A model generated the notes under the pieces. It was not told the origin of the DNA. It was given only the letters and a program-made list of their open reading frames with translations, and did no database searches. The position numbers and the translations under genes were made by a program. DNA of 26,286 nucleotides from a virus, in the IMG/VR virus record IMGVR_UViG_3300047473_000003, positions 1 through 26,286 of that record, one strand, 5' to 3'. Each line of letters opens with the position of its first letter. Position 1 is the stretch's first letter. This document shows positions 214-25,588 of this stretch, in pieces.

Positions 214-1650
214 ATGAAACGGCTTCTTGCTGCGTTACTGGCATTGTTCGCGGCAGCGTCCGCTTATGGCGATCTGGGGCCGACTTCGCCGACGGCCACA
301 CAAATCATCGGGGCATTCTCTGGATCATGTTCCAGTTCCACTTATTTGCGCGGCGACGGAGTATGTAACGCGGTCGGTGGTGGCAGTTCAGCGTTCAGCG
401 CGTTGACCGGTGGCACCAATACGGCCGCAGCGATGGTTGTCGGAACCGGCGCGAGTCTTACCGCGACCGGCTCCGGTTCTATCGCTGCAACCGACGTTAC
501 CGCAACGTCGAACTCGACACTGACGACGTTAAGCGTGCTGAGCTTGCCGTCGACGCAGGTTACGGGGCTTGGGACCTTAGCGACCGCGAATGCCGCGACG
601 CCTCCGGCGCTCGGCGGCACCACACCAGCGGCTGGCACGTTCACAACCCTGACCGGCACGGGTACGGTGGCTCTCGGCGGCGCGGCGAGCGCAGCGCCCA
701 CGGTCCAGTCCTCCACGCAAACGACCGCGCGCCCCATCGCAGGCTCGCAGGACGTGCAAACGTTCACGTCGAGCGGCACGTGGACGGCCCCGAGTGCGGG
801 GTATAAGACGGTTCGGCTGATAGTGATGGGCGCTGGAGGCGGCGGCGGCGGCGGCATCACCACAGTCATCGGAACCACCAGCTCTGGCGGATCGGGCGGC
901 GGCGGCGGGGACTTTGATGACATTCTCTATCCAGGGTCCGCGATCACATCCCCGCAGACGGTAACCATCGGCGCGGGCGGCACGGCGGGCGGCCCAGGTG
1001 CCGCGGGCGGCAACGGCGGCACAACCTCGTTCGGGTCAATCCTGTCCGCCTATGGCGGCGGGGGCGGGTTTCAAGGGCAATCGAACGCAAATTCCGGCGG
1101 TGGCGGCGGCGCTTCGCACCGCGCAACCGGAAACGCCGGAACAAATTCGGCCGGCGGCGCGGCTGCCGGTAATAGCGGCGGCGGGGGTTTTGGCGCTATG
1201 GGTATAAACGCTTCAACCCCAAACGTAGGAAACGGAGGGTCCGGAGGGGTTAACGGCGCTGCGGGCAGTAACGCCCCAAACTACCTTTCGGTACTAAGTG
1301 GCGGGAGCGGTGGCGCGGCTGGTGGCGGGAATACTGCGGCGGCGGCGACGGCCGGAGGTTTTTTCGCAAATTGGAATGCGAGTGGTGTTGGAATAGCGGG
1401 AGGCGCGGCGGGTTCGGGCGGCAACGGCGGCAACGGCGGCAACGGCTCGACCCTCGCAACTCCGCTGTACGCGGCGGGGGCTGCTGGTTCGGGTGGCGGT
1501 TCCGCCATTTCCACGTTTACCGCCGGCAACGGCGGAACCGGGGGCGTGGCTTCCGGCGGTGGCGGCGGCGGTTCGGCAGCTTCGACAGGCACCGCAGGCA
1601 GTGGCGGTGCCGGCGGCCCCGGAATCGTCATCGTAATCATCACCTACTGA
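214..1650 (+). CDS. Glycine-rich tail-fibre/adhesin-like protein with signal peptide
   Basis: Encodes 478 residues. I chose ATG 214 because AGAGG lies 8 bases upstream and the product then starts with a classical signal peptide (MKRLLAALLALFAAASAYG, residues 1-19). A TTG 21 bases upstream is possible but unlikely. Residues about 30-45 (GSCSSSTYLRGDGVC) and the following FSALTGGTNTAAAMVVGTGA stretch resemble repeats seen in many phage fibre proteins. From about residue 180 comes a block beginning QTFTSSGTWTAPSAG and VRLIVMGAGGGGGGG, the hallmark of the phage glycine-rich tail domain, followed by about 280 residues of Gly/Ala/Ser-rich sequence. The family is used as tail tips or adhesins. It sits at the head of a fibre/spike cluster. 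A signal peptide on a virion protein is odd. Confidence 0.85.
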   Translation: MKRLLAALLALFAAASAYGDLGPTSPTATQIIGAFSGSCSSSTYLRGDGVCNAVGGGSSAFSALTGGTNTAAAMVVGTGASLTATGSGSIAATDVTATSNSTLTTLSVLSLPSTQVTGLGTLATANAATPPALGGTTPAAGTFTTLTGTGTVALGGAASAAPTVQSSTQTTARPIAGSQDVQTFTSSGTWTAPSAGYKTVRLIVMGAGGGGGGGITTVIGTTSSGGSGGGGGDFDDILYPGSAITSPQTVTIGAGGTAGGPGAAGGNGGTTSFGSILSAYGGGGGFQGQSNANSGGGGGASHRATGNAGTNSAGGAAAGNSGGGGFGAMGINASTPNVGNGGSGGVNGAAGSNAPNYLSVLSGGSGGAAGGGNTAAAATAGGFFANWNASGVGIAGGAAGSGGNGGNGGNGSTLATPLYAAGAAGSGGGSAISTFTAGNGGTGGVASGGGGGGSAASTGTAGSGGAGGPGIVIVIITY

Positions 1651-1658
1651 GGCACCCC

Positions 1659-2156
1659 ATGTCACTGTACGCTGTCATCTCCCCATCAAACGCCGTCATC
1701 AATCTTGTGACGTGGGACGGAGTGACACCCTTCGACGTCACACCGAATACGCTGGTGTCCGCGAGCGGTCAGCCAAATGCGCAAATCGGTGGGACGTATG
1801 CCAATGGCGTGTTTACCGCGCCGTCCGCGCCGACACCGCCGCAGGGAATCGTGTTTCAAAACTCCCCGGTGAGTGGCGCGACGGTGGCGCTTCCGTCCGC
1901 GTATTCGCCCGGTGCGGGGTTTCGCAAACTCTACGTGTATTTGCAACCGGCCGCCGCGCTCGCGGCGCTGACGCTCTCCCTCGATAGCACGGCTCAGGAT
2001 GGCGATGTGGTGTATATCGTGTCCACCAAAGCCATCACGGCGCTGACGCTCGCGCCCACTCCTGCCAACGGCGGCGCGACGGCGGCGCTTGGCGCGGGGG
2101 TGTTTTCGCAGCTGGAGTATTCCGCGCAGTTGGCTTTCTGGTATCGAATAAAATGA
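1659..2156 (+). CDS. Small tail-fibre-associated protein
   Basis: Encodes 165 residues from ATG 1659, 8 bases after the previous stop. The frame is open much further upstream, but only as a shadow of the glycine-rich gene, so the internal ATG is the credible start. The N-terminus (MSLYAVISPSNAVINLVTWDG) is followed by a flexible Pro/Ala segment. The second half (residues about 75-165) is strand-rich, with GDVVYIVSTKAITALTLAP and a final aromatic strand FWYRIK, like the C-terminal beta-structured part of phage fibre or baseplate accessory proteins. No catalytic motif is visible. Its place between two fibre-like genes suggests a fibre accessory or tip protein, which is inference. Confidence 0.75.
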   Translation: MSLYAVISPSNAVINLVTWDGVTPFDVTPNTLVSASGQPNAQIGGTYANGVFTAPSAPTPPQGIVFQNSPVSGATVALPSAYSPGAGFRKLYVYLQPAAALAALTLSLDSTAQDGDVVYIVSTKAITALTLAPTPANGGATAALGAGVFSQLEYSAQLAFWYRIK

Positions 2157-2160
2157 GAAT

Positions 2161-4137
2161 ATGAAATACGCCATCCTTCTTCTGTTGTTCCTGTGCTCGG
2201 CCGCAAATGCGGATTCCTCGTTGCAAAGGCTGAACAGCCTCGCGCAATTGCCCGGTCCCGTCACGTCCCAATATGGCGGCGTCGCGACCATACCACTTCT
2301 CTCGCAGGGCATGGTGTGCAACGGCATGGTTATCACGGCGGTGACGACCACGGCATCGAGCGGCACCGTGACCGGGACCGGATTCACAGCCGCGATGAAT
2401 GGGCAACTGATTACCATCCCCGGCGGCGGTACGGCGGGAGCCGTTTACAATGGGACCATCACGGCGGCATCTACGGGCTCGGTGACGGTCTCGCCCGTCG
2501 TCACCACCGCGATTGCTGGAACCGGCACGGCGACGACCGGAACCCCGGACGATGCGGCTTTGCAAACCGCATTCACCAATGCGGCGGCGGCCGGTGGTGC
2601 CACGCTTGAACTTCCGACCGGCATCTGCATCATCTCGGCCAGCATCTCGCCAACGTCGAACGTGAGCCTGCGCGGGCAAGGCGCGTCAAAGTCGATTCTC
2701 AAATGGATCAGCACATCCGACATGGCCAACGGCGTGATCTACAATAACGGCACCAGCGGTAATTGCACGCTCGCCTACGCCAAGGCGAATTACAGCAATA
2801 TCAATCTGAGCTATTTCGAGGTTGACGGATCGGCGGCCACGATGTCGAGCTACGTCGCATCTGGCAAGGGCATCAACATCACGTGCGGCTACAACGTGAC
2901 TATCGATCACGTGTACGTCCACGATACCCCGGCAACGTGCATCGCGACGGACTTCGGCCAGCCGTCGATCGTGACGAACAACATCGCGGAAAATTGCGGC
3001 AGGCTGTCCAATACGTCGGCTGGCGGCAACGGGATAGGGCATGGCGTTATCGGGCTTGCGCGCGAGGCGTACACGCTTACCGGAAACGTGGTCATCAATC
3101 CACAGCACTACGGAATCATCCTGGAGGGCCAAAACACCACGACAACGCTGCCTCTTGCCGCGACCATCGCAGGCAACGTCATCATCGAGGGCAGCAACAG
3201 CACGAATTCGTCCGGAACATGGACGGCCGGCATTGGCGTTTCCGGGGCATACGGCGGCAGCGTCTCCGGAAATTCCATCTTCGGATTGGATACGAGCGCG
3301 AGCTGGGCCGGCATCTCTATTGACGCAGGAACGCAAGGCACCACAGATCCGGCTGGCACGCAAACCACTGTCTCTGCAAACAATGTGTACGGTGCCAACG
3401 TCGGTATTCTGGTCAACTTCATCGAGACAAACCCGTCATCCGGGTTCAAATCCAACGTCAACATTCACGGCAACAGCGTATTTTCCAGCTACCTTGCCGG
3501 CATTCAGATTGAGACGAACGCCACGACAGGCGGCTTTATGGACGGGGTCAATATCAGCGGCAACGTTTCCTGCGGCAATGGCAGCGCCGGAATACTGTTC
3601 GTCAGCACTGCGAACGTCGCTGCCACAAATGTCAACGTCAGCAACAATACTCTTTGCAACAACGGAACAACGGTCGCGACGAATTATCGGCAGTCGGGTT
3701 TTGGGACCAATATAAGCATCACCGGCCTGACGTTCGTCGGCAACACCATCTACGACAACCTTGCGACCCACAAGCAGATTTATGGCTTCGGCGTTGCGAG
3801 CGGCGCGACTGTTTCGACTGCGCTCATTCAATCGAACAATTTCACAGCTGCAACCTCCGCGTTTGAGAATCTCGGCACCATAACTGGGGTCATCAAGGAC
3901 AACATCGGCTGGAATCCTGTCGGTCTTTCGACCGTCACTGTCACGGCAAGTCCATTCACGTATACCTGCGGAAATTCACCCTGCCAGGTTTACATTTCCG
4001 GCGGCACGATTACGACAGTAACCAAGTCAGGAACCACATTGCCTTCAGCTGCATATGGTTCGATCCCGCTGGCACCGGGTCAGTCTGTGATCGTCACGTA
4101 CACGGTCGCCCCGTCCATGATCGTCGATATCAACTAA
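2161..4137 (+). CDS. Beta-helix tail-spike-like protein with signal peptide
   Basis: Encodes 658 residues. The N-terminus MKYAILLLLFLCSAANA is a textbook signal peptide (cleavage expected after ANA, about residue 17). After a Thr/Gly-rich segment (residues 50-130) comes LRGQGASKSILKW at about residue 170. Then follow many Asn/Gly/Val-rich turns of about 25 residues (NVSLRG, NVTIDHVYVHDT, VSGNSIFGL, NVNIHGNSVFSS, NVSNNTLCNN), the signature of a right-handed parallel beta-helix of the pectate-lyase/NosD type. Such proteins in phages are usually trimeric receptor-binding spikes or polysaccharide depolymerases. It lacks an obvious phage head-binding domain. The start lies 4 bases after the previous stop and the end abuts the next ATG, so these genes form one operon. 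Confidence 0.85.
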   Translation: MKYAILLLLFLCSAANADSSLQRLNSLAQLPGPVTSQYGGVATIPLLSQGMVCNGMVITAVTTTASSGTVTGTGFTAAMNGQLITIPGGGTAGAVYNGTITAASTGSVTVSPVVTTAIAGTGTATTGTPDDAALQTAFTNAAAAGGATLELPTGICIISASISPTSNVSLRGQGASKSILKWISTSDMANGVIYNNGTSGNCTLAYAKANYSNINLSYFEVDGSAATMSSYVASGKGINITCGYNVTIDHVYVHDTPATCIATDFGQPSIVTNNIAENCGRLSNTSAGGNGIGHGVIGLAREAYTLTGNVVINPQHYGIILEGQNTTTTLPLAATIAGNVIIEGSNSTNSSGTWTAGIGVSGAYGGSVSGNSIFGLDTSASWAGISIDAGTQGTTDPAGTQTTVSANNVYGANVGILVNFIETNPSSGFKSNVNIHGNSVFSSYLAGIQIETNATTGGFMDGVNISGNVSCGNGSAGILFVSTANVAATNVNVSNNTLCNNGTTVATNYRQSGFGTNISITGLTFVGNTIYDNLATHKQIYGFGVASGATVSTALIQSNNFTAATSAFENLGTITGVIKDNIGWNPVGLSTVTVTASPFTYTCGNSPCQVYISGGTITTVTKSGTTLPSAAYGSIPLAPGQSVIVTYTVAPSMIVDIN

Positions 4138-6399
4138 ATGAGCAATCTCTACCAGCCAATCGTCACGACCGCGACGGGGGATACCCTCCCGGGTGGTGGC
4201 AACAAAATCAACTCAAACTTCCAGTTTTTCTCAAGGGCTGGCGGCAACGCATCGACCGGTCAGAGTGCGGCGGAAGTGGCCTGCTCGGTCATCCCCGGCA
4301 ACTCGTTCTACGACGAATGCGACATTCGCAGGTACATCTACACGTCGGACACCGGCTACGCCTTTAACAACGGCTCTCCCACGGTCACGGACTACGTTGC
4401 CGCCTATAACCGGGCAAAAACAGTCTGTGCGCAAACCGGGCGGTCCATGTCTCTTGCTGGCCTGACAATGACGTTCGGCTCGGCAATATCCTTCGATCCG
4501 AATCTGTACGGGATCGAGGGGCAGAGTTGCACGATGAACTTTCCATCCCTGTCGTCGGGGCCGGCGATCACGATCAAAACCGCGGTGCAGGGCTTTGCCC
4601 ACAACTACGTCAACCCGATGCGGAACTTTGTCCTGGTCGGACCATCCGGGTGGTCGTCGGGGACGGTCGACGGCATTCAGTTTGGCGGCGACAGTGGTGT
4701 CGGCGGGACCGCAACCGGAGGGTCTACTACGGCATTGGTGGACTTAGGCCAAGCGTGGTCGACCAACCAATGGGCCGGCGGTCAGGTCACCATCGGGACC
4801 ACGATCATCGGCATATTGAGCAACTCGGCGACCACGCTCAACTTCTCGTCTGCTCAGTCGGCCGTGACCGCGGGGACCGTCTACCGGAATCTTTCAGCGA
4901 TCAACGCAGCCCCCGTCGGGGCGTTGTCCTGCATTGAGTATTTCGACATCTCGCAGTTCCGCAGGGGACTCGTCTGGTCGGACAATACGTGGCTGAACGA
5001 CATTGGCCGCGGGAACTTCATCAACTGCGTATACGCGGCCTATTACCCTTCGGGGCTCGCGAACTCAGGAGAAAACATCCATTTCGGCTGCGTCGCGATT
5101 GGCGAATGTACCCACGGCATTTATCTGAATGCCGGCACGTTCAACATCGACCACATCTCGTTCGACTATAACAACGGGCGCGCCATCGACGTTTTAGGGG
5201 GCGGTTCTTTCCATGCGGCCCGGTGCTACATCGAGAACGGCGGATCGGCCACCTACGACGGCGATTACTGGCTGCACCTACAGGATGTGGACTCGTCGCT
5301 GTCGATTGACGACTTTGAAGTCACGCTGAACGGGACAAAAACGGCCTATCCCTTTGCCTATTGCCTGGACAATTCGAGCGCGAAAATCACTGTCAGAACC
5401 CTGACCCTGAACAACGTCACCGAAGCCAATTATGACTTTGGCTACTTCTGCCAGGGCCGCATGACGGCAGACAGCATCGCCTCGTTCAACCAGACCAGCT
5501 CGAGCGGGACTTCGGCTTGCGTGACAGCATCGAGCCAAACCATCACGGCGGACGGCGGCTTTACCAACTCCAAGGTTATCGATTGGTTGTCGGCGGGAAC
5601 TTCCCAGGAAGCCGTCAGCGCCTCGCAAACGTATTCGGGGAATACGGTCTACAGCGGGACCAACTCCCTTGCCATGGCTCCCACATCGTCCCAGACGGCT
5701 GTTGCCGCCCGGTGGGACGAATGCGCTCCTGGAGTGGCCATCCAGCTGTCGCTGAGGATGAAGCAAACCGGCACGGCGTCGACCGATTCGGCCTTCATCG
5801 GCATTACGTTTATGGACCAAAACGGCAACAATTTGTCGCTGAATGCGATCAGCCGGCAGATCTCGACCCTGCCGACGACGTGGACACGATATGCCCTGAT
5901 GCCGTTCGGTGTCGCCCCTCCTGGAACTTGTTACTGCCGAATCCTTCTGTCCCGGACGGCTTCGGGTGGCGGTAACTCGGACGGCAACGGGGTTCTCTAT
6001 TGGGATGACATCTACCTCGTCGGCAACGGCGGTGTCTACCGGCCGTTACAGCATGGGGCGTATCCTCCTCGGACGTCCGTGTTTACGGCCAACGCCTCGT
6101 TTACCCTTCCGAAAGGGCTGGCGATGGACTACCTGCATCTTCAAAACACCACGGCAAACGCCATCACCGGCTTTCAGATCGGGACCTCTTCGGGGGCGTC
6201 CGACGTATTCGGGCCTGTCAATATCGGGGCCAACGCCGAGTTGGTGTATTCGCCCCTGTCCATTGCCAAACCGTATTTAGCCTCGACCGGGACCCAGACC
6301 TATTTCGTTTCGACTCCTGCGGTGTCCACTACCAATTGGAACTCGGGGTCGGTTACGCTTACTGTCCTGCCGAAGAGGGTGCTGACCATAGGATACTGA
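4138..6399 (+). CDS. Tail spike with virion-attachment N-terminus and beta-helix-like body
   Basis: Encodes 753 residues, with ATG directly following the TAA of the upstream spike (TAAATG). Residues 1-35 contain TATGDTLPGGGNKINSNFQ, similar to the GDTL..GG.KIN.NF motif at the N-terminus of many phage fibres that anchor to the virion. The middle (about 130-460) has repeated short Asn/Gly strands (AINAAPVGALSCIEYFDIS, FNIDHISFDYNNGRAIDVL) fitting a beta-helix. A segment at about 490-620 (VSASQTYSGNTVYSGTNSL, YWDDIYLVG) looks like a carbohydrate-binding beta-sandwich, and the last 110 residues are a further beta-rich tip. The likely role is host surface polysaccharide binding or cleavage; catalytic residues cannot be assigned by eye. 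Its TGA overlaps the next ATG. Confidence 0.8.
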   Translation: MSNLYQPIVTTATGDTLPGGGNKINSNFQFFSRAGGNASTGQSAAEVACSVIPGNSFYDECDIRRYIYTSDTGYAFNNGSPTVTDYVAAYNRAKTVCAQTGRSMSLAGLTMTFGSAISFDPNLYGIEGQSCTMNFPSLSSGPAITIKTAVQGFAHNYVNPMRNFVLVGPSGWSSGTVDGIQFGGDSGVGGTATGGSTTALVDLGQAWSTNQWAGGQVTIGTTIIGILSNSATTLNFSSAQSAVTAGTVYRNLSAINAAPVGALSCIEYFDISQFRRGLVWSDNTWLNDIGRGNFINCVYAAYYPSGLANSGENIHFGCVAIGECTHGIYLNAGTFNIDHISFDYNNGRAIDVLGGGSFHAARCYIENGGSATYDGDYWLHLQDVDSSLSIDDFEVTLNGTKTAYPFAYCLDNSSAKITVRTLTLNNVTEANYDFGYFCQGRMTADSIASFNQTSSSGTSACVTASSQTITADGGFTNSKVIDWLSAGTSQEAVSASQTYSGNTVYSGTNSLAMAPTSSQTAVAARWDECAPGVAIQLSLRMKQTGTASTDSAFIGITFMDQNGNNLSLNAISRQISTLPTTWTRYALMPFGVAPPGTCYCRILLSRTASGGGNSDGNGVLYWDDIYLVGNGGVYRPLQHGAYPPRTSVFTANASFTLPKGLAMDYLHLQNTTANAITGFQIGTSSGASDVFGPVNIGANAELVYSPLSIAKPYLASTGTQTYFVSTPAVSTTNWNSGSVTLTVLPKRVLTIGY

Positions 6400-7043
6400 T
6401 GAACAGCCAGACCGACATTTCCAACGTGGCGCTTACCATGTTGGGGTTACCCACCATCAATGCGGTCAGCGACCAGTCAAACCCCGCGCGGACCCTTGCG
6501 GGGATCTGGAACGTCGAACGGGACAACGAACTGCGGGCGCGCGTGTGGAAGTTCGCCATCCGCCGCACGACCCTGCCGTTGTTATCGCAGGTTCCCGCCT
6601 CGGGACCCTTTAACCTGATGTTCGCCCTGCCGCAACAATGCCTGCGGATTCTGCTGGCTGGCAACTCCTATCCGGGCGGGGATATCTCGGACTTGCGGTA
6701 TGGGGAATTGGACGAGGATTATGCCCTGGAGGGCAACAACATCCTGACCAATCTCCCGGCCCCTTTGTGGCTGACCTTCATCCTGCAAGTGACCGACCCG
6801 ACCCAATGGGATCCCTGCTTTTCCAAGATGTTTGCGTGTCGACTAGCGATGACTTCCTGCTTCCGCCTGACGAACTCCATGGACATGAAAAAAACCCTCA
6901 TGCAGGAGTACAAGGAAGCGCAAAGGGATGCGCTCAGGGCGAACGCCTTTGAAACAACGCCGCAGTACCCGGCGGACGATTCCTGGGTATCCTCCCGCAT
7001 GGGTGGAGCAGGAGCCCCTGGGGCGGCGAAGATCAATTACTGA
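6399..7043 (+). CDS. Tail tubular protein A-like (T7 gp11-like adaptor)
   Basis: Encodes 214 residues. The frame opens further upstream, but ATG 6399 overlaps the previous stop as TGATG and gives MNSQTDISNVALTMLGL, the conserved start of the family. Supporting features are the ARTLAGIWNVERDNELRARVWKFA region (a Trp/Arg helix after the N-terminus), FALPQQCLRIL (the P..CLRI motif, about residue 75) and the C-terminal helix with MKKTLMQEYKEAQRDAL. In T7-like phages this protein forms a ring between the portal and the nozzle. The adjacency to a gp12-like gene, again by TGATG overlap, supports this. The length (T7 gp11 is 196 residues) fits. Confidence 0.85.
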   Translation: MNSQTDISNVALTMLGLPTINAVSDQSNPARTLAGIWNVERDNELRARVWKFAIRRTTLPLLSQVPASGPFNLMFALPQQCLRILLAGNSYPGGDISDLRYGELDEDYALEGNNILTNLPAPLWLTFILQVTDPTQWDPCFSKMFACRLAMTSCFRLTNSMDMKKTLMQEYKEAQRDALRANAFETTPQYPADDSWVSSRMGGAGAPGAAKINY

Positions 7044-9595
7044 TGGCAAAGGCTACCCCAGCCCTCGAATCGTTCAACGCCGGCGAGCTCTCTCCCGACT
7101 TCGCGGGACGGGTCACGAACGAAAAGTACGCGGTCGGGTGCGACACGCTCGAGAACTACATCCCCATGATCCAGGGGCCGGCCAAGCGCCGCCCTGGCTT
7201 TCGCTTTGTCGAACCGGTCGCGAACTCGGCCAACCGGACGTGGCTGAGGAAGTTTATCTACTCCGAGGACCAGGCGTACCAACTGGAATTTGGGGTCGGC
7301 TACATCCGGTTCTATACGAACCACGGACAGGTAACGTCGGGGGGTAACGTCTACCAAATTGCGAGCCCTTACACCGCGTCGATGCTCACCAACGCGGACA
7401 ATACCTGCGGGCTACAGATGGAGCAGTCCGGGGACGTGGTGTACATCGCGTGCGCGGGAACCTATCCCATGACGTTAAAGCGTCTGGGAAACACCAACTG
7501 GACACTAACCGCCTACGCGCCCCCGGACGGGCCATTTCTCGATCAGACCCCATCAAACAGCCCCGCCCTGTACATCGCGACCATCGCGGGTTCCCCGAAT
7601 CAGGTGACGTGTTATGCGACCGCGGCGGTATTCAGCCCGTCCGATGTGGCGACCGCCACCACTCCCGGCAGGCTCGTCCGCATCGGCGTGCAGACCTATA
7701 ACATCTCCCCGTGGGAGCAGGGGGTGGGATATACCGCCAACACCCTCGTCCGTTACAACGGCTGTACCTTCAAGTGCATTTACTCGGGGACTTCGGGGAA
7801 CACGCCACCGACCCAGACATCCGGCACGCAGTGGGATGGAGCCTATCAGGTCGGGTGCTTGTGGCTTTACCAGGATTGCGGCTACGGGATCGGCTACGTC
7901 TCGGCCTATACGAGCCCAACCCAGGTGACGCTGACGGTTTCCGCCTACGCAGGGCAGAACAACAACCCCGGAATGCAACTCTACGGCTTTCCCGCGGCAA
8001 CCATCGGAACGGTGGCGACCGTGACCGGAATCACCAATGCAGCCCCCGCCGTGGTGACCGCGGTGGGGCATGGATTTAGCGTGGGCGATCCTGTCTACCT
8101 GACGGGTATTCAGGGCATGACGCAGATCTCGGAGCAGGCGTTTACCATCGTCGCGGTCACGTCGAACACATTCAGCCTCGCCGGGACCGACTCGACAAAC
8201 TACGGCACCTGGGCATCCGGAGGCACGCAGCAGGCGATCAAGGATGCGACCCTCAACTGGCAGATCGGCGCGTGGGGGATCGGCTCGACTCAATTCCCCG
8301 GCACGTTTCCATCGTCGTTGGCGTTTTTCGAGGACAGGCTTTTTTGGGGCGGTGGGATCAAATGGTGGGGATCGGCTCCCGGAATCTACAATTCTCACAC
8401 GCAGGACCTCTACAGCCTCGTCACGGCGGATTGTGCGGTGTCTGGAATCATCGCCTTCCATCAGGTCGATCAGATTACTTGGATGTCCGCGGCCATCGTG
8501 CTTTTGATCGGGACGAAGGGCGGGGAGTTTGCCTTATCCGCTTTGAACCAGAACGCGCCCATAGGACCCGGAAATACATCAGTTGAGCGTCAATCGGATA
8601 TCCGGTCGCGGCCAGTGCGAGCAGAGATGATCGGAGTGTCAAACTTCTACGTCCAGCTCGGCGGAAAGCGGGTGATGAAGCAGGACTATAATTTCTACCT
8701 GAACCGGTACGACAGCACAAACCAGACCCGTCTGGCGAATCACATCGCCGGTTATTCCGTCACTTCGGGCCTCATCGACATGGACTGGCATGCAGAACCG
8801 TATGAAGTCCTGTGGGCGGTCAGGAACGACGGGATCCTGGTCGGGTATACGTTCGACTCCGAAGACAAGGTGACTGGCTGGCATCAGCATCCGCTTGGGT
8901 CGACCATAGCGGGTGCGGCGGTGGTTGAGTGTGTTTCCGTCATCCCCGCGCCCGATGGGACTCGGGACGAAGTGTGGGCGATTGTAAATCGCACGATTGG
9001 CGGCGTAACCGTCCGCAGCGTCGAGTACATGGAAAAGGACTACGAGACCGGCGACTCGCAGAGCGCGGCGTGCTATGTCGACATGTCCGGTAGCTATGTC
9101 GGTGCTCCCACAACGACCATCACCGGCCTATCGTATCTCAATGGGGAAACGGTGTCAGTGCTGCGGGACGGTGGCGGTCATCCGGATTGCGTCGTTTCCG
9201 GTGGTCAGATCACCCTGGCCCTTCCCGGATCAGTGGTTCAGGTGGGATTGGCCTGCCCCGCAAACCTCATCGCCATGCGACTGGAGGCGGGATCGGAGCA
9301 GGGCGGAACCGCGCAGGCAAAGATCAAAACCATCACCCGCGTCGCGGTGCGGGTCAAGAACACGCTCGGCTTGGTCGGCGGGGTGGAGGGGGGCATTTTG
9401 GACCTTCTGACGCCAAACGAATCCTCGACCCCCCTGGCATCCCCGCCGCCGTTATTTAGCGGCGATGTTTTCGTCAGTACCGACAACATATCGGACACGG
9501 ATGCGAAAATTCAGATTCTGCAAACCAACCCGTTTCCGTCACAGATCACGGCCATCTTCCCCGTCATCCATGTCCACGAGCCGATCCCGCAATGA
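7043..9595 (+). CDS. Tail tubular protein B-like nozzle protein (T7 gp12-like)
   Basis: Encodes 850 residues; ATG overlaps the previous stop (TGATG). The N-terminus MAKATPALESFNAGELSP followed by GCDTLENYIPMIQGPAKRRPG (about residues 34-54) is the signature of the large phage tail tubular B/nozzle family, which in T7 (gp12, 794 residues) forms the distal tail tube that binds the fibres. Residues about 322-394 hold an inserted module (PAVVTAVGHGFSVGDPVYL and TFSLAGTDSTNYGTW) of the kind annotated as a ubiquitin-activating E1 FCCH-like domain in phage proteins. In phages this is a beta-barrel insertion and does not indicate ubiquitin chemistry. SLAFFEDRLFWGG (about 428-440) is another family motif. 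Confidence 0.88.
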   Translation: MAKATPALESFNAGELSPDFAGRVTNEKYAVGCDTLENYIPMIQGPAKRRPGFRFVEPVANSANRTWLRKFIYSEDQAYQLEFGVGYIRFYTNHGQVTSGGNVYQIASPYTASMLTNADNTCGLQMEQSGDVVYIACAGTYPMTLKRLGNTNWTLTAYAPPDGPFLDQTPSNSPALYIATIAGSPNQVTCYATAAVFSPSDVATATTPGRLVRIGVQTYNISPWEQGVGYTANTLVRYNGCTFKCIYSGTSGNTPPTQTSGTQWDGAYQVGCLWLYQDCGYGIGYVSAYTSPTQVTLTVSAYAGQNNNPGMQLYGFPAATIGTVATVTGITNAAPAVVTAVGHGFSVGDPVYLTGIQGMTQISEQAFTIVAVTSNTFSLAGTDSTNYGTWASGGTQQAIKDATLNWQIGAWGIGSTQFPGTFPSSLAFFEDRLFWGGGIKWWGSAPGIYNSHTQDLYSLVTADCAVSGIIAFHQVDQITWMSAAIVLLIGTKGGEFALSALNQNAPIGPGNTSVERQSDIRSRPVRAEMIGVSNFYVQLGGKRVMKQDYNFYLNRYDSTNQTRLANHIAGYSVTSGLIDMDWHAEPYEVLWAVRNDGILVGYTFDSEDKVTGWHQHPLGSTIAGAAVVECVSVIPAPDGTRDEVWAIVNRTIGGVTVRSVEYMEKDYETGDSQSAACYVDMSGSYVGAPTTTITGLSYLNGETVSVLRDGGGHPDCVVSGGQITLALPGSVVQVGLACPANLIAMRLEAGSEQGGTAQAKIKTITRVAVRVKNTLGLVGGVEGGILDLLTPNESSTPLASPPPLFSGDVFVSTDNISDTDAKIQILQTNPFPSQITAIFPVIHVHEPIPQ

Positions 9596-10508: not shown

Positions 10509-10826
10509 ATGAGCGGCATCGTCAAAAGCCTGTTACCGATTGCCGGGGCAATCGGCGGCTCTTTGCTGCTGCCCGGAGTGGGAACCGCTGCCGGGGCGGC
10601 GTTAGGCGGTGCGGCGGGAGTTGGCGCGGCTGACCTGATCCATACCGGCGGGAAGGTCCCCCCACCCCCGACAGCCCCTTCGCAGGACACCGCGGCCAAT
10701 GCCGCTCTCGCCCAACAGAATGCCCTGATGCGTCGACGGGGCCTGCTCGCCAACATCGCGGGCGGGGCCCTTCCCGGCGCTGCCACCGCACCGACGACGC
10801 AGACCAAATCCGCCCTGGGTAACTGA
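10509..10826 (+). CDS. Small Gly/Ala-rich hydrophobic virion or membrane protein
   Basis: Encodes 105 residues. Residues 1-45 are hydrophobic, with glycine-zipper spacing (LPIAGAIGGSLLLPGVG and GAALGGAAGVGAADL). They are followed by a Pro-rich linker (GGKVPPPPTAP) and an Ala/Gln-rich helix ending MRRRGLLANIAGG. GAGGG-like GAGG lies about 13 bases upstream of ATG 10509. An ATG 4 bases earlier is in another frame. The gene lies between the gp14- and gp15-like genes and its TGA overlaps the next ATG. Membrane-active glycine-zipper proteins occur among phage ejection proteins, so a second internal virion protein is the best guess. A holin is less likely because a separate lysis block exists downstream. 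Confidence 0.65.
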   Translation: MSGIVKSLLPIAGAIGGSLLLPGVGTAAGAALGGAAGVGAADLIHTGGKVPPPPTAPSQDTAANAALAQQNALMRRRGLLANIAGGALPGAATAPTTQTKSALGN

Positions 10827-15900: not shown

Positions 15901-16764
15901 GCACAGAAAGTCGCGGGCGGCGGGGCGATTGCCGATGCGCGCATGGCCGCGATGGCCGCGGCGGGAATCGACCGGGACATGCTCGGGAGAATCGCGGCTC
16001 AACATGAACAATTCGGCGCAAAGGTCAACGGCCTTCATTTCGGCATGTCGGACCAGTGGGCAGACAAGGAAGCGGCCCGTGTTTTCGAGTCTGCGATATT
16101 GCGTGACGCGCACTCGGTCACACTTCGACCTGGGGCGGGTGATACGCCGTTGTTCATGTCGACAGAATGGGGTAAGGCGCTGCGGCAATTTACGACATTT
16201 GGCTATGCCGCGCAGCGCTCTGTCGTCAATCCGCTAATGCAGGGACTTGCGCATGGCGACCCCAGGGCGGCGCAGGCATTATTTGCTCTCGCGGCGGCGG
16301 GAACACTGTCGTATGTGTCGAAACAGAAAGCAGCTGGACAACCCATTGAGCCGTTCGACTCGCCCCGGTTCGCGCTCGAAGTGTTGGATAAATCGAACCT
16401 GATGGGCTGGACATCAGACCTCGTGTTCCCCGCTCTGTGGACGATGGGGTTTAAGAATCTATCCCGCTGGTCGGATCGCGACCCGGTAGAAACCATTGGC
16501 GGGCCTGTTGTGGGGACAGTATTCAGCACGTATGGGCGTCAACTGCCGGGCAAGCTTATCGCACCATTGCGGGATGACGACTCGGGACAAAAAGGCATCA
16601 GCCGCGCAGACCTTCACTTTATGCGCCGTCTCATGCCAGCGCAGAATCTTTGGTATCTACGCAACGGCATCAACAGTTTAGAGGACGCCACAGGCGACGC
16701 CTTCGACCTTCCCGGTAAATCCAACGCGGATCGAGCCGCGGAACTAGCGAGTACAGCAGAATGA
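12988..16764 (+). CDS. Large internal virion protein, gp16-like
   Basis: Encodes 1258 residues (T7 gp16 is 1318). Residues about 110-195 are hydrophobic, with GATDPLTLASMAIPIVGE and a glycine-rich stretch ending GSMILGGIIGAAIRPHV, which could insert in membranes during ejection. A variable low-conservation part (about 200-520) is followed by a long helical region with features common to large phage ejection proteins (SDIDHVAHSYLRSMAPEVEM at about residue 750; FGSRDMKDQI). T7 gp16 has an N-terminal transglycosylase; I see no convincing lysozyme-like catalytic motif at either end here. The stop overlaps the tail-fibre start (ATGA). Confidence 0.78.
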   Translation: MPLIPNDDQMSLPDVRGSLPAPTAPDMSSTGDLLGAAFRRQNLVGTLYERAMYPAPEAPAKPGFDPEVSVPKGAEDHAQIFAGALNEQDIQWREQQYQREQIDKRIIDAHGGWGVAATMLAGATDPLTLASMAIPIVGETRLAQAGIMAGVAGVTTAAQEGVRRGMEVSGTNTESALNIAGSMILGGIIGAAIRPHVPVSEFQAAAAKIDESFRNEGAQPMGPIDGRQSIIPETHVEVAPPHPESGKAAEPGGRADVPKEGKWIAADKPIWEMSADELHAHADKLDSESVDTLTSIFGNKKDATKFHRLANSERDSDYAASEKMVESLPEDKQRLIEQWDTGGGLHAINGSELRDLEKAVRSMHAVGSPEELAERLKHALTNIGDATDPSLMKTKEMRALMETKAAHEVATENGWDLKQISEQAIKSAASRFSDPNDAEFMLGRFLKEPEVTTPHGPTPLKIGAAEGGESVAKSEQPKAALPDVPQAIGELHVNPEAESTAGAAQASNPTLRGETIARGAETLSNTLGRVSPGGRLMNSPSIESRKLLQELANLPETTEKNWQGASTASPIERELWKYDGVHHEGMQARAEQWKAYKERMAGLGQKTMTRQEFYESIAHAMRRGDQHPVPEVAAAAKKTREIEFDPLKERAIKAGLLPEGVTPKGAMSYLMRQYDTEKIRANLGDWLKLLREGFQKQGVDAAEAADIAHSVTRNIMGSERGTMDWKVLDDVVPKSGQMKERTLNLPDEVLEPYLNSDIDHVAHSYLRSMAPEVEMTERFGSRDMKDQISAVHDDYARMIERAPDNASKEELSKHMEADLRDLTAVRDRLYGIYGAPKDASHFAVRAGRLLRSVNAARLLGAATLAHFPDIANVMMRYGLGNTMAAIGKVLTSPEAFNLTRSEAKRMGAGLDMSMNATAAMLGDYANHSQWGPQRFMNRLSRAFTIATLETPLITAVQQLTSTMAQDAIVRAAQKVAGGGAIADARMAAMAAAGIDRDMLGRIAAQHEQFGAKVNGLHFGMSDQWADKEAARVFESAILRDAHSVTLRPGAGDTPLFMSTEWGKALRQFTTFGYAAQRSVVNPLMQGLAHGDPRAAQALFALAAAGTLSYVSKQKAAGQPIEPFDSPRFALEVLDKSNLMGWTSDLVFPALWTMGFKNLSRWSDRDPVETIGGPVVGTVFSTYGRQLPGKLIAPLRDDDSGQKGISRADLHFMRRLMPAQNLWYLRNGINSLEDATGDAFDLPGKSNADRAAELASTAE

Positions 16765-18929
16765 CAGTTTCATCCCAAACGATCCGCGTCAGCTACACCG
16801 GGGACGGCACGACGACCGCCTTTACCGTGCCCTTTCTGTTCTACGCCAACACGGACCTTGAGGTTTTTACGAACGGCGCACAGGTCAGCACGGGCTTTTC
16901 GGTAACCGGGGCGGGCATTGGGTCTGGAACGATCACGTTCTCGCAACCGCCGTCGGCGGGCGTGAACATCCAGTGCATTCTCTCGCCGCCGATCACGCAG
17001 CTGGTTAATCTGGTCGACGGTACGGCCTTCCCCTCGGCAACGCTCAACCAGGTCAACGACCGGGCAATCCAGATCGATCTGCGGCTACAGGATCAGATCA
17101 GCCGGTCGATCGTGGCCCCCGATGGGGATGTATCGCCACAGTTCGGACTGCCGAAAGCGTCTGTCCGTGCGGGCGGCTTTCTGACCTTCGACGCCAACGG
17201 CAATCTCGCAGTATCGCAAACCCTTCCTCCGGGAACGGTCCTAAACGCAGCGGCGGTGGGAGCCCTGATCTACCCGCAGACAGCCCAGGAGGCGGCGAAC
17301 AACATTGTCCCGTCCGTGCCCTGGTGGCCTCCCGGTCGACCGGAGCGGTACGGTGCCGTGGCGGACGGGAAAACGGATGACACGGTGGCGGTACAGGCGG
17401 CGATCACCGGCTCGAACATCGTCACCTTGTCCGCCGGCAAGATCTACGCGGTAACGTCCGTCACCATTTCCAATGCATTCACGCGCTATTACGGCAACGG
17501 CGGAGTATTGGCTGGCATCTCTGCCACGGCAAAGTCTGCCGTGGTGCAAATCCTGACGAGCTATGCCGCGTACTACGATCTGGTGACATCGACAAATCTC
17601 GGCACGGTGGTCCCGAATCCCAATTACACCTGCTCGGTCTGGTTCGGTGCTGCAACCGGAAACTACCAGTGGAACAAGTTCTATGGCTTGTTCATGACCT
17701 CGGCAACCCGTGGGCTTGTGATCGGTGCGCTACCGGGAAATACCCCGGATGCAAATAGCCTCATCAGCGAAAACCAATGGTACGGCTTTGGTACGGTGGG
17801 GGTGCAAAACCCGTTCTATCACAACTGCACACAAGGGTTTGCCTGGTTCAGCAACCCCGTATTTTATTCGGGATCGGAGAACTGGACGGGAACGTTCAGC
17901 CAATCGGCTGCCAGGGCAATCGAGAACGTGCTCGGTGCCATGTTCTGCCAGGGCGGGGAAATCGAGTTTCCCTACAACTCGGGGGCTTATGCTGCTTCGA
18001 TCAAGAGCGCCATTTTGATCGGCATGTACATCGAGAAAAACGTGCCGTTCTATCTGACCGGCGATGGCCTGAGCATGTCGGATTGTTTGATTTATGACCT
18101 CGTTCCTGGGGCATCGTCCATCACGCTGGCAAGCGGCGCAACGGGGTTCTGCAAGATCGAGGGGTGTGAGTTTCAGCGTCCGTCGACCCCTCCCCCTGGC
18201 GTGGGTTCCTACGATGGAACGTCCATGATTGATGCGTCCGTGGCGGGAGCGTTTACCGTCTCCCTGTCGGGATGCATCACAAAGGAATGGTCATGGAACA
18301 CGGTCAACGGCAATACGCGGCTCGTCAAAACGACCGATGGCAATGGCACGCTGGTCCGTTACCGCGACCACATCATGCAGAAAACCGCGCAGGCGGCGTT
18401 TGACACCAATATCTACGCATTCGACTCCCCCGGCGATTCCATGCTGGACGGTTCGACCTTCGACCGCCTGGGGTACAGCACGACCGGGTGGGAACTCGTC
18501 ATCGTGAACGGTGGTGGAACCACCATGACCAACACGACCGCCGCGGGACCGACCGGCTATAACGCGAAGCAGATCCAACTGCTTGCGACCGGGAACTATT
18601 CGGTCATCTCCCCGTCCACGCACATCCCGTGCGCGCCGGGCGAACTCTTTTGGGTGTCCTGCTGGATCAATACCATCTCAGGCGGCAACGGCAAACTCGT
18701 CCTGCGCTGCTTCGACACCAGCAACACGGAAATTTTCTCGGCCGGTCAGCCGGCAATCATCCTCGCGGACTCGGGAAGCATCCCGGCGAATACATGGACG
18801 TTCTGCGAGTCCCCCTCTGGATCTTTGCCAACAGGAACGGCCTATGTCGCGCCCGCAATCTATGGAAATACGTCGACGGTCATCGCCACCGACATGCGGA
18901 TACGTCACGCCGATGCGGACAACCAATGA
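16761..18929 (+). CDS. Tail fibre/spike with T7 gp17-type N-terminal domain
   Basis: Encodes 722 residues. Residues 1-150 match the T7 tail-fibre N-terminal attachment domain: YTGDGTTTAFTVPFLFY, a strand with VFTNGAQV, then FPSATLNQVNDRAIQ and LQDQISRS. Residues 196-208 (RYGAVADGKTDDT) are the classical start of a pectate-lyase-type beta-helix, so the fibre continues as an enzymatic-type spike. The rest has Asn/Gly-rich strands, a possible carbohydrate-binding part (about 570-700, with PGELFWVSCWINT) and a short acidic end. It probably attaches to the nozzle and recognises or cuts host surface glycans. It overlaps the gp16-like stop by ATGA, the same gene order as T7 gp16-gp17. Confidence 0.88.
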   Translation: MTVSSQTIRVSYTGDGTTTAFTVPFLFYANTDLEVFTNGAQVSTGFSVTGAGIGSGTITFSQPPSAGVNIQCILSPPITQLVNLVDGTAFPSATLNQVNDRAIQIDLRLQDQISRSIVAPDGDVSPQFGLPKASVRAGGFLTFDANGNLAVSQTLPPGTVLNAAAVGALIYPQTAQEAANNIVPSVPWWPPGRPERYGAVADGKTDDTVAVQAAITGSNIVTLSAGKIYAVTSVTISNAFTRYYGNGGVLAGISATAKSAVVQILTSYAAYYDLVTSTNLGTVVPNPNYTCSVWFGAATGNYQWNKFYGLFMTSATRGLVIGALPGNTPDANSLISENQWYGFGTVGVQNPFYHNCTQGFAWFSNPVFYSGSENWTGTFSQSAARAIENVLGAMFCQGGEIEFPYNSGAYAASIKSAILIGMYIEKNVPFYLTGDGLSMSDCLIYDLVPGASSITLASGATGFCKIEGCEFQRPSTPPPGVGSYDGTSMIDASVAGAFTVSLSGCITKEWSWNTVNGNTRLVKTTDGNGTLVRYRDHIMQKTAQAAFDTNIYAFDSPGDSMLDGSTFDRLGYSTTGWELVIVNGGGTTMTNTTAAGPTGYNAKQIQLLATGNYSVISPSTHIPCAPGELFWVSCWINTISGGNGKLVLRCFDTSNTEIFSAGQPAIILADSGSIPANTWTFCESPSGSLPTGTAYVAPAIYGNTSTVIATDMRIRHADADNQ

Positions 18930-21051: not shown

Positions 21052-21627
21052 TCATGACGCCAACCGATAGATAAACCGATGCTTCGATATCCGAGCTATG
21101 CGCTTGATCGTCACGCCAGCGGGAACATGACCCCGCCGACTGTAGCGTTTGCCGGTGTCGGCGCAGGCATAGTCAAAGCGCGGCGTCTTGCGCTCTTGGT
21201 CCGTGCGACCGTCCGCAATCCAGTTGGCAGCCTTGTAGATCGTGCCGCCGTGGCCCGCCGAAGGATCAGCATAGGAAACCAGAACGCGAACCAGCGGGCA
21301 GTTCTGCCGGATGTATTTGACGGCCTTGGCGATCAACCAGGTTTCGGCGTTCTGCGGAACCGAGTCGTCAAGCCAGAACCGGGCGAGTTCCCATGTCTCC
21401 CCGCCGTACCGCTTCGAGGTTTCGCGCGGCGGCAGCGCAAACACGACAATTCCTATAAATTGGTTCCATGCGTCTTTCTTCCTCATGCCGAGGATCAGCG
21501 TACAAACGCCGGGCCATTTGCCGATGTAGTGGCGCTTAATCATCGCGTCGCCTTCGGCGCGCCCGATGCGCTCAATCAGGCAGTCGGCGCGCCATACCTT
21601 GTCGAACACCGGACAATCAGGCTTCAC
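21052..21627 (-). CDS. Mom-like DNA modification protein (GNAT-fold)
   Basis: Encodes 191 residues from GTG 21627, which overlaps the upstream stop as GTGA. A much longer frame reading poly-glycine upstream is only a shadow of the Ala-rich gene. Motifs are IKRHYIGKWPG (residues 30-40), IGIVVFALPP (58-67), WELARFWLDD (79-88), PQNAETWLIAKAVKYI (91-106) and the strongly diagnostic SYADPSAGHGGTIYKAANW (118-136). This layout is that of the phage Mom family, whose Mu member converts adenines in phage DNA to a carbamoylmethyl derivative and so blocks host restriction enzymes. Other restriction-avoiding or RNA-acting GNAT relatives share the motif, so the exact chemistry is inferred. It is the last clear gene of the leftward operon, and 27-bp direct repeats flank it. 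Confidence 0.82.
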   Translation of the reverse strand: MKPDCPVFDKVWRADCLIERIGRAEGDAMIKRHYIGKWPGVCTLILGMRKKDAWNQFIGIVVFALPPRETSKRYGGETWELARFWLDDSVPQNAETWLIAKAVKYIRQNCPLVRVLVSYADPSAGHGGTIYKAANWIADGRTDQERKTPRFDYACADTGKRYSRRGHVPAGVTIKRIARISKHRFIYRLAS

Positions 21628-21980
21628 GTTTTGCCGCCTTCCGCGCCCGTCTCTTGCACGCTTTGCTTCAGTGCTTTGTTGACCCAATACGATACGCGCT
21701 TCGCCCTCTCCGCCGCCACCGCCGCCTCCGCCTCCGCCGCCACCGCCGCCGCCGCCGCACGCCGCGCACCCCACGCCGCAGCCGCCGCCGCCTCCGCCGC
21801 ATCCCACGCCGCCACTGCCGTGCGCTCCGCCTCCGCCGCATCCCACGCATTCCACGCATTCCACGCCGCAGCCGCTGTGCGCTCTGTAGTCATCTTGCGC
21901 CATGCGTCACCGAAGCCGTGCGCATCGGCCAACGGTTGCAGCTTCGTCAACTCATTCCACATGCTTGATAGATCGATCAT
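21624..21980 (-). CDS. Ala/Trp-rich repeat protein of unknown function
   Basis: Encodes 118 residues from ATG 21980, overlapping the tiny upstream ORF by ATGA. Residues 1-33 are ordinary (MIDLSSMWNELTKLQPLADA, then GFGDAWRKM). Residues about 34-92 are alanine-dominated with Trp at intervals (AAAAWNAWNAWDAAEAERTA; AVAAWDAAEAAAAAAWGARR), predicted as one long helix. The end has VNKALKQSVQETGAEGGKT. Similar AAWAA-type repeats occur in many phage early-region proteins of unknown role. The DNA is a low-complexity GCN repeat, which creates long false frames on both strands. Its stop overlaps the GTG start of the mom-like gene, so the two are translationally linked. Confidence 0.7.
   Translation of the reverse strand: MIDLSSMWNELTKLQPLADAHGFGDAWRKMTTERTAAAAWNAWNAWDAAEAERTAVAAWDAAEAAAAAAWGARRAAAAAVAAEAEAAVAAERAKRVSYWVNKALKQSVQETGAEGGKT
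21655..21681. repeat. 27-bp direct repeat, copy B (right of mom-like gene)
   Basis: This is the second copy of the repeat at 20992-21018, at a spacing of 663 bp. It lies within codons for NKALKQSVQ near the end of the Ala/Trp-rich gene, and the mom-like gene lies wholly between the copies. Confidence 0.9.
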
Positions 21981-25172: not shown

Positions 25173-25348
25173 AAATTCGGCCTATCTTTCACATCAGTCC
25201 CAACAGCGCCCCACCGAGTCGTGTACGCGCCGTCCCAGTCAATCGCGCGCCGCCGCCTGCGCTTGCGCCATGTCGGACGCAGCGCGGCCAACAGCCCGAG
25301 TGCGGCGATACCGAAGCAGATTGAGCACAGCGGTAGCTGCCAGCTCAC
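25169..25348 (-). CDS. Small membrane protein (59 residues)
   Basis: GTG 25348 overlaps the stop of the upstream paralogue gene (GTGA) and the frame ends at TAA 25169-25171. The product starts MSWQLPLCSICFGIAALGLL, giving a transmembrane segment (about residues 5-24), then RPTWRKRRRRR (24-34), a strong cytoplasmic basic anchor, and a soluble end with DWDGAYTTRWGAVGTDVKD. One membrane span plus a positive cluster suggests an inner-membrane protein. No family is recognised. Confidence 0.6.
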   Translation of the reverse strand: MSWQLPLCSICFGIAALGLLAALRPTWRKRRRRRAIDWDGAYTTRWGAVGTDVKDRPNL

Positions 25349-25588
25349 GGCGTGACCTCGCCGAGAACCTCACGTCGCAGAGCCCCGTATTGGTAATCGT
25401 TGCCGACCACGTCACCTATCAGCGCGACGATCCACAACCGCGCGCCAGGCCATTGCGGCGGGAGCATCGTCGCGTGTAGTGCCTTTTCCGTGCAGAGTTC
25501 CGATTTGCGCGCACGCAGTTTGGTAACGTCCCCGACCTGCACGCCGCGATCAAATGATCGGCCGATCATCGGCTGGCCATATTGATCC
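25341..25588. repeat. 248-bp tandem duplication, copy 1
   Basis: Matches 26039-26286 with 7 differences by my count (about 97%). It encodes the last ~80 residues of the protein at 25345-26046 and the GTGA junction with the next gene. The right copy runs off the window edge, so the duplication may be longer. Confidence 0.93.

Follow-up and report, generated by a model that had tools for sequence, protein, structure and literature searches.

Sec signal peptides and cysteine pairs in fibre-like proteins encoded among phage tail genes

Tailed phages are presumed to make and assemble their adhesins in the cytoplasm, as is the norm for virion proteins and ordinary phage tails. The window analyzed here, a stretch of 26,286 nucleotides from the IMG/VR virus record IMGVR_UViG_3300047473_000003, raises the question of why two proteins encoded within it, P0001 and P0002, begin with what look like Sec signal peptides (Table 1). 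The original prediction offered two answers: either the proteins are exported from the infected or lysogenic cell to act at its surface, for example by modifying or masking receptors, or their hydrophobic N-termini serve as virion anchors.

Table 1. Positions in the window of the two signal-bearing genes, their N-terminal features and neighboring tail genes
Feature	Position	Strand	Description	Family match
P0001	214..1650	+	glycine-rich, fibre-like, signal-bearing, 478 aa	phrog_863, 4.3e-17; Gly_rich_2 below cut-off
P0001 putative Sec signal peptide	214..270	+	predicted cut after AYG, residue 19; scorer favors residue 15	
P0001 two-cysteine module SCSSSTYLRGDGVC	325..366	+	residues 38-51; export-linked form	
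P0003	1659..2156	+	small, no signal, no cysteines, between P0001 and P0002	phrog_14370, no function assigned
P0002	2161..4137	+	beta-helix-like, signal-bearing, 658 aa	Beta_helix below cut-off; phrog_34028
P0002 putative Sec signal peptide	2161..2211	+	predicted cut after ANA	
P0004	4138..6399	+	tail-spike-like, no signal	weak, sub-cut-off T4 gp9/10-like N-terminus
Tail tubular A-like protein	6396..7043	+		phrog_394
Tail tubular B-like protein	7043..9595	+		phrog_376
P0005	16761..18929	+	tail-spike-like, no signal	phrog_1640 tail-protein N-terminus; Phage_T7_tail below cut-off

Signal peptides at the two N-termini

The N-termini were scored with a rule-based scorer of our own. For calibration we took 80 annotated genes of E. 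coli K-12, whose labels we assigned from gene name and product. At a score of at least 5, the scorer passes 19 of 19 labelled secreted proteins and 2 of 3 lipoproteins, along with 5 of 15 labelled membrane proteins and none of 43 cytoplasmic proteins; hspQ, a cytoplasmic control, reaches 4.15. P0001, whose N-terminus reads MKRLLAALLALFAAASAYG before the putative cut and D after it, scores 7.0, and P0002 (MKYAILLLLFLCSAANA, then DS) scores 8.0. The P0001 start, ATG 214, has AGAGG 7 bases upstream. When residues 2-61 were shuffled in 20000 trials, the protein's own score was reached 24 times for P0001 and 4 times for P0002, and when 60 residues were drawn from the whole protein it was reached in 1/20000 and 0/20000 trials, respectively. 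Shuffled N-termini of other genes scored 7 once in 2883. Reading the window's 149 six-frame ORFs from their first start gives six that score at least 5 and two that score at least 7. Controls and shuffles confirm the claim that both proteins carry canonical Sec signals, each N-terminus reading as a signal with a cleavage-type site. The companion claim, that the other spikes lack such signals, also holds: the scorer returned zero candidates for P0004 and P0005, as it did for P0003. One called gene at 10509-10823 (105 aa) scores 5.4 and is probably a false positive. The label "tail protein" is borne out for P0001 by family match, phrog_863 being listed as tail fiber assembly. P0002 has only the sub-cut-off Beta_helix match and phrog_34028, to which no function is assigned, and both proteins are no more than candidate virion components.

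Paired cysteines in signal-bearing proteins

Mature P0001 contains exactly two cysteines, C39 and C51, which frame the module GSCSSSTYLRGDGVC. Among deduplicated viral ORFs (near-identical ORFs removed and truncated ORFs kept apart), a signal was found in 24/24 with the two-cysteine form versus 2/35 (L063 and L092) with the cysteine-less TYLRGDGxW form. The 24 include the window's own P0001 and two ORFs from a single contig (L008); 23 score at least 5, and L099 scores 4.7. Fisher's test gives a p of 1.5e-14, which overstates the association because the ORFs are related. Clustering at 40% identity over half length yields eight cysteine-only clusters with a signal, twelve cysteine-less clusters without, two cysteine-less clusters with, and one that is mixed. 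Relaxing the thresholds to 30% identity over 30% of length merges every ORF into a single cluster, so the signal and cysteine events are not independent; moreover, the two viral sets differ in GC, so host group may contribute to the pattern. Not one of 111 modules has a single cysteine, and two signal-bearing fibres (L052 and L037) also hold cysteine-less W-like modules. Set A1 comprises nine sequences, all of the two-cysteine form, and one row, that of the window's own module, extends back into the signal; the confirming sequence, L011, is mature sequence from one of the nine. In one search the best 80 of 87 relatives were kept. One set of ten loci included two chance frames and one ORF truncated at the locus end, and 10 of 20 ORFs in another set were chance frames.

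Two further handles were searched. YLGADGxC occurs in ten fibre ORFs, of which seven have a signal by script and one by hand; the others comprise one with a signal-like N-terminus that lacks a standard start and one that is truncated. ORFs with the fibre-tip domain carry a signal in 14/14 cases, although for one of them this holds only from a start codon far inside the ORF. In one phage (L137, seen again as L143) the tip occurs twice, with both cysteines in the signal-bearing fibre and none in the signal-less one. The tip-domain model (pLDDT 77.6) finds a weak best PDB match (E 9.4e-4), with a C1q head at 5e-3, and resembles collagen-type fibre tips of uncultured phages. The AlphaFold model of P0002 alone is poor (mean pLDDT 40.7) and usable at about residues 600-658 only, where C603 is predicted to lie within, and C608 at the end of, a turn joining two C-terminal tip strands. 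The C-terminal tip pattern of P0002 adds no separate test, because the only other matching ORF in the loci searched, L076, was chance-like.

Cysteine number was also counted in complete ORFs of at least 200 aa, setting aside those whose score fell between 0 and 6. Mature cysteines of the signal-bearing ORFs (n=72) were even in 58, odd in 11 and zero in three, as against 192 even, 231 odd and 110 zero for the signal-less ORFs (n=533). Representatives of the signal-bearing clusters gave 42 even to 10 odd. Selection of cysteine-pair ORFs was considered as the source of this parity and rejected by the residual count: the remaining cysteines of the 27 motif- or tip-bearing ORFs were even in 25, odd in one and zero in one, and the other 45 signal ORFs, which lack the searched motifs, had 32 even, 10 odd and three zero. 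Some of the 72, odd and even alike, are probably false signals (e.g., L041, L004 and L086). Mature P0002 has ten cysteines, which, like the two of P0001 and the mostly even counts of the class, fits the cysteine-count pattern expected of Sec-exported, disulfide-bonded proteins, a pattern seen in E. coli and more weakly in B. pseudomallei (PMC7678975). Counting against export, P0004 and P0005 have 15 and 12 cysteines, respectively, yet no signal. Because signals pair with the cysteine form and counts are mostly even, the class appears to be made for the oxidizing periplasm, and the sequence evidence for export and disulfide competence is strong. Thus, of the two answers first offered, export from the cell is well supported, with signals tracking cysteine pairs in all three searched handles.

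Genomic setting and comparison with known systems

The P0001 and P0002 genes are packed within the window's tail gene run. Signal-bearing genes of the class are likewise found in tail regions and frequently form tandem arrangements; a phosphoesterase and a GH30-like enzyme are among their signal-bearing neighbors. Phage tail or baseplate families adjoin them in the window, L039, L044, L055 and L137, and ordinary fibres or spikes do so in four of these five loci, L044 being ambiguous. These ordinary proteins (P0004, P0005, L137:2717-4384 and phrog_12796 in L039) are of the same general kind, and the one in L137 shares the tip family, but they lack a signal and the L137 tip, where comparable, is cysteine-free. 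Pfam and PHROGs were scanned for 52 of the 72 signal ORFs, leaving out six longer than 1100 aa, six previously scanned and eight taken for false or doubtful signals; Collar, Peptidase_S74 and collagen each occur in one of the 52, and tail-fibre PHROGs are present.

Neither P0001 nor P0002, whole or in pieces, had a homologue among cultured phages, nor did the whole proteins in IMG/VR. The tip domain had no match in cultured phages, where two fibre-module searches gave three and four weak records. The window's tail tubular B-like protein matched 176 cultured-phage records, all below 60% identity, and had no match in a close-relative search of IMG/VR. A search of open-access journal papers listed no class of exported or signal-bearing tail fibres.

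In bacterial genomes, the cysteine form was found in 0/24 ORFs by a scan that required [SN][TSG]TYLRGDG. Fourteen bacterial ORFs have a signal, six of them in Bdellovibrio records and with a cysteine-less module. Bdellovibrio mosaic adhesive trimer (MAT) proteins are described in PMC10769870 as a signal peptide and a conserved beta-rich domain of about 130 aa, followed by a trimeric, phage-tail-fibre-like fibre that acts extracellularly. They thus resemble P0001 and P0002 in joining a signal to a tail-fibre-like protein, but they are bacterial and chromosomal and the module of the Bdellovibrio relatives lacks the cysteine pair, whereas P0001 and P0002 are phage-encoded among tail genes. Lambda Lom is also a signal-bearing phage gene product encoded between tail genes but is an outer-membrane beta-barrel expressed in lysogeny (PMC12309495) rather than a fibre. 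A tyrosine integrase was found in 3/23 class records, a count to be read with the fact that many records are fragments and the tyrosine type alone was sought. With the absence of the cysteine form from the 24 bacterial ORFs, this led us to reject a lysogenic-conversion gene; these counts and the tail-run packing lean toward the infected cell of the original prediction over its lysogenic alternative.

Possible roles of the putatively exported proteins

The account we favor, which we hold to be about an even call, is that P0001, P0002 and their class are late products, exported and disulfide-bonded, that the cell releases as free adhesins or enzymes when it lyses. P0001 and P0002 would be translated together with the tail genes, carried across the inner membrane by Sec and cut by signal peptidase. 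They would then fold in the oxidizing periplasm, where their cysteine pairs could close as disulfides, gather there as the cell dies, and leave at lysis beside the virions. Once outside, in what is the least certain step, they might work as unattached, disulfide-stapled adhesins or as glycan-active enzymes whose targets are surface glycans, debris or neighboring cells; receptors might, for example, be covered or trimmed, sparing progeny from being lost to debris. Receptor masking or modification is possible as one of several jobs. If fibre genes that combine a Sec signal with a disulfide-adapted module form a recurrent class, some phages maintain an exported adhesin and enzyme set of their own. 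A rule that the cysteine pair goes with the signal could help to separate exported from virion fibres in metagenomes, and such fibres would be naturally disulfide-stapled binding proteins, useful for detection tools.

A lesser but real chance attaches to completion of the tail outside the cytoplasm, in which the exported, disulfide-bonded fibres are virion parts that dock on short, signal-less fibre proteins once the cell opens. Distal fibres and enzymes would then join virions only at lysis, and the tail genes of some uncultured phages would conceal a second assembly line. The position of the genes, the tail-fibre domains of the class and the likeness of the tip model to collagen-type phage tips all fit, and short signal-less fibre proteins lie directly upstream in L039 (phrog_12796, twice) and, by sequence likeness, in L037. 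Against it, Pfam and PHROGs give no virion-attachment or docking domain downstream of the signal in either P0001 or P0002, though the absence of a match is weak evidence, and the four loci with ordinary fibres or spikes already have such proteins. We know of no tailed phage that completes its tails outside the cytoplasm.

It is doubtful that the main role is to mask receptors or exclude superinfecting phages in a living infected cell's envelope (or a lysogen's), in the way of T4 Spackle or T5 Llp. T5 Llp reportedly works in the periplasm in masking or exclusion, and is said to have no fibre or tip domain. T4 Spackle shows that periplasmic phage proteins with such a role exist, but it is made early and inhibits the gp5 lysozyme (PMC7677548) and has no fibre or tip domain, whereas P0001 and P0002 are encoded within the window's run of tail genes. 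The phage whose signal-bearing and signal-less fibres share a tip family speaks for masking; long fibres rather than small inhibitors, and the few integrases, speak against it. As a general rule, masking of the same receptor was rejected: BLAST of signal-bearing against other ORFs over 74 loci gave nine matches, of which only L137/L143 was informative.

That the N-termini are uncleaved virion or membrane anchors, the second answer first offered, is very improbable. Signal anchors can look alike, and the scorer passes a third of the membrane controls (5/15), but here the h-region is followed directly by a cleavage-type c-region, beyond which fibre sequence begins. Nor would anchoring to a particle assembled in the cytoplasm account for the cysteine pairing and parity. 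Least probable is chance or artefact, through misplaced starts or bacterial DNA contaminating the viral contigs: these contigs come from metagenomes and their ORFs were called mechanically, but phage tail or baseplate families adjoin the signal-bearing genes in all five loci named above, the cysteine form is absent from the 24 bacterial-genome ORFs, and the pattern recurs over many contigs.

Signal peptides of P0001 and P0002

The N-termini of the Gly-rich fibre-like P0001 and the beta-helix-like P0002 carry textbook Sec signals. We scored them with a home-made, rule-based scorer, for which 80 E. coli K-12 genes served as calibration set; at its cut of 5 or more, it passes 19/19 secreted proteins, 2/3 lipoproteins, 5/15 membrane proteins, and 0/43 cytoplasmic proteins. 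The scores of 7.0 and 8.0, respectively, bear out the canonical signals originally predicted for both proteins. When each protein's own residues 2-61 were shuffled 20000 times, these values were reached 24 and 4 times. As also predicted, no candidate was found in the tail-spike-like P0004 and P0005; the scorer found none in the small protein P0003 either. The genes for P0001-P0004 and two tail tubular-like genes are consecutive, separated by roughly ten bases at most or overlapping slightly. This close spacing makes a common late transcript very likely. The window is a linear virus record of 26,286 bases, and such records are often fragments.

Cysteine pairs and signals in fibre genes

C39 and C51 are the sole mature cysteines of P0001 and frame the module GSCSSSTYLRGDGVC. 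Scanning IMG/VR for a pattern of this module returned 10 loci: two chance frames, one truncated gene, and seven fibre-like genes, all seven with a signal at the start. A module alignment was also searched against bacterial and archaeal genomes (23 loci) and viral contigs (79 loci, from the best 80 of 87 relatives), with [SN][TSG]TYLRGDG and [TSG]TYLRGDG as scan patterns. Among the deduplicated viral ORFs, a signal accompanies the cysteine pair: all 24 two-cysteine ORFs bear one (23 score 5 or more, L099 4.7; P0001 itself is included and contig L008 contributes two), versus 2 of 35 with the cysteine-less TYLRGDGxW form (L063 and L092; Fisher p 1.5e-14, inflated by relatedness). Clustering at 40% identity gives eight cysteine-only groups that carry signals, 12 cysteine-less groups that lack them, two cysteine-less groups that have them, and one mixed group; at 30% identity over 30% of length, all module ORFs merge into one cluster. 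None of 111 module instances has a single cysteine. GC ranges overlap, at 0.41-0.64 in the cysteine-form viral set and 0.35-0.67 in the cysteine-less set, which is mostly lower; host group may therefore play a part. Among the remaining genes of at least 200 aa, 27/168 passed the scorer in cysteine-form loci versus 10/219 in cysteine-less loci.

All 24 module ORFs from bacterial genomes are cysteine-less; 14 carry a signal (12 of them in Bacteroidota or Bdellovibrio relatives, taxon as recorded), two a weak one, five none, and three are truncated. Thus, the signal does not require the cysteines. Cysteine-less W-like modules also lie inside the signal-bearing fibres of L052 and L037. The bacterial loci (L013-L035), largely from Bacteroidota and Bdellovibrio relatives, perhaps encode cell-surface fibres of MAT type. 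Bdellovibrio MAT fibres (PMC10769870) appear to resemble the signal-bearing class in two features, a signal and a tail-fibre-like adhesin.

A second motif, YLGADGxC, occurs at 20 loci, which include 10 fibre ORFs (one of them, L005, known beforehand; L118 and L124 near-identical). A script called seven signals, and an eighth, starting from an internal Met (L129), was assigned by hand; one N-terminus is signal-like, without a standard start codon (L120), and one ORF is truncated (L130). A search with the tip at the C-terminus of the L044 fibre retrieved 6 and then 14 loci, the contigs of L044 and L134 included. Signals are present in 14/14 tip ORFs, 13 inside the first 150 codons; in L145 the signal follows only from a start far inside the ORF. 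Both tip cysteines are invariant, and the first motif is absent from 9 of the 11 tip ORFs listed, out of 14. The tip is predicted to fold entirely as beta structure (pLDDT 77.6). Its best matches are collagen-type proteins from uncultured phages (E 2.6e-8); PDB matches are weak (phage baseplate, 9.4e-4; C1q head, 5e-3).

Phage L137 encodes this tip family twice. Its two tips are alike (35% over 118 residues), with glycine replacing the first cysteine in the signal-less fibre (VPYGGTI vs VPYACTI), whose two cysteines in all lie in the body. Both fibres match phrog_35197, and the signal-less one also matches phrog_10330, "virion structural protein", across the tip. Contig L008, shared with L053, carries tandem signal-bearing paralogues, 55% identical, both with the two-cysteine module. 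Several fibres (L009, L011, L038, L043, L044, others) share a short start directly after the signal, roughly TYNLF[SK]PA[SN]G, which may serve for docking or may just be the first repeat.

Cysteine parity and the fate of the fibres

Exported proteins favour even cysteine counts in E. coli and, more weakly, in B. pseudomallei (PMC7678975). Among complete viral ORFs of at least 200 aa, cysteine counts of the mature part were even in 58, odd in 11, and zero in 3 of 72 signal ORFs (score 6 or more); in the 533 that lacked a candidate, they were even in 192, odd in 231, and zero in 110. Even-to-odd ratios were 42 to 10 versus 156 to 174 for cluster representatives, 48 to 11 versus 175 to 203 at an earlier cut, and 32 to 10 (p 4.7e-4) for signal ORFs after excluding those with searched motifs or tips. 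Residual cysteines in 27 motif- or tip-bearing ORFs were even in 25, odd in one, and zero in one. Some signals are probably false, among odd and even alike. Parity is the strongest evidence that the signals are used.

Export and oxidative folding of these fibres are very probable and well supported, which upholds the export part of the proposal that the proteins leave the cell to act at its surface. We infer, at roughly even chances, that the fibres are freed at lysis and then act outside the virion. It is rather doubtful that they join virions outside the cytoplasm. Action in the envelope of the living cell is less probable still. Phage proteins with a signal or in the periplasm are known, such as Lom (PMC12309495). 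The other proposal, an uncleaved virion anchor, is unlikely. Our literature searches found no report of exported tail fibres, nor do passages of PMC3765740, PMC3556154, and PMC6102473 mention them.

Genomic setting and neighbouring features

The fibre genes lie among tail genes in several phages (table), and, by our reading, upstream of tail tubular genes in L139, as in the window. The arrangements in L037 and L041 resemble that of L039 by sequence. We read a gene shortly downstream of the L044 fibre as an endolysin, and, from the genes in these loci, the phages as myo-, sipho-, and podovirus-like. A tyrosine integrase occurs in 3/23 records. A signal-bearing neighbour is present for 53/89 signal ORFs.

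Features of the window and of related loci
Record	Positions (strand)	Feature	Observation
Window	214-1650	P0001	478 aa
Window	1659-2156	P0003	
Window	2161-4137	P0002	658 aa
Window	4138-6399	P0004	
Window	7043-9595	Tail tubular B-like protein	E1_FCCH match, 8.2e-9, above cut-off; CBM_5_12 match, sub-cut-off
Window	16761-18929	P0005	
Window	21052-21980 (-)	Low-complexity stretch	Single stretch
Window	25345-26046 (-)	ORF	Long G/D/Y/N-rich stretch
Window	26043-26285 (-)	Adjoining ORF	
L137	2717-4384	Collagen-type fibre	Signal-less
L137	4999-6417	Cysteine-paired fibre	Signal-bearing
L058	14090-15994	Phosphoesterase	Signal-bearing; PF04185, 2.6e-33; adjoins signal-bearing fibre genes
L049	3682-7896	GH30-like enzyme	Signal-bearing; just above cut-off; adjoins signal-bearing fibre genes
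L039		Signal-bearing fibre	After genes for baseplate and structural proteins (phrog_6, phrog_587) and for two tail fibres of phrog_12796
L044		Signal-bearing fibre	Preceded by a tail protein (phrog_4271) and a protein of 259 aa without family assignment
L055		Signal-bearing fibre	After a protein with tail-fibre matches

The C-terminal segments (GRSFDRGVQVGDVTKLRARKSELCTEKALHATMLPP...) of the two adjoining minus-strand ORFs at the end of the window are almost the same, which looks like tandem gene duplication plus low-complexity expansion. In the low-complexity stretch, overlapping putative frames are Gly-rich or Ala/Trp-rich (AAWNAWNAWDAAEAERTA), and the coding frame is uncertain.
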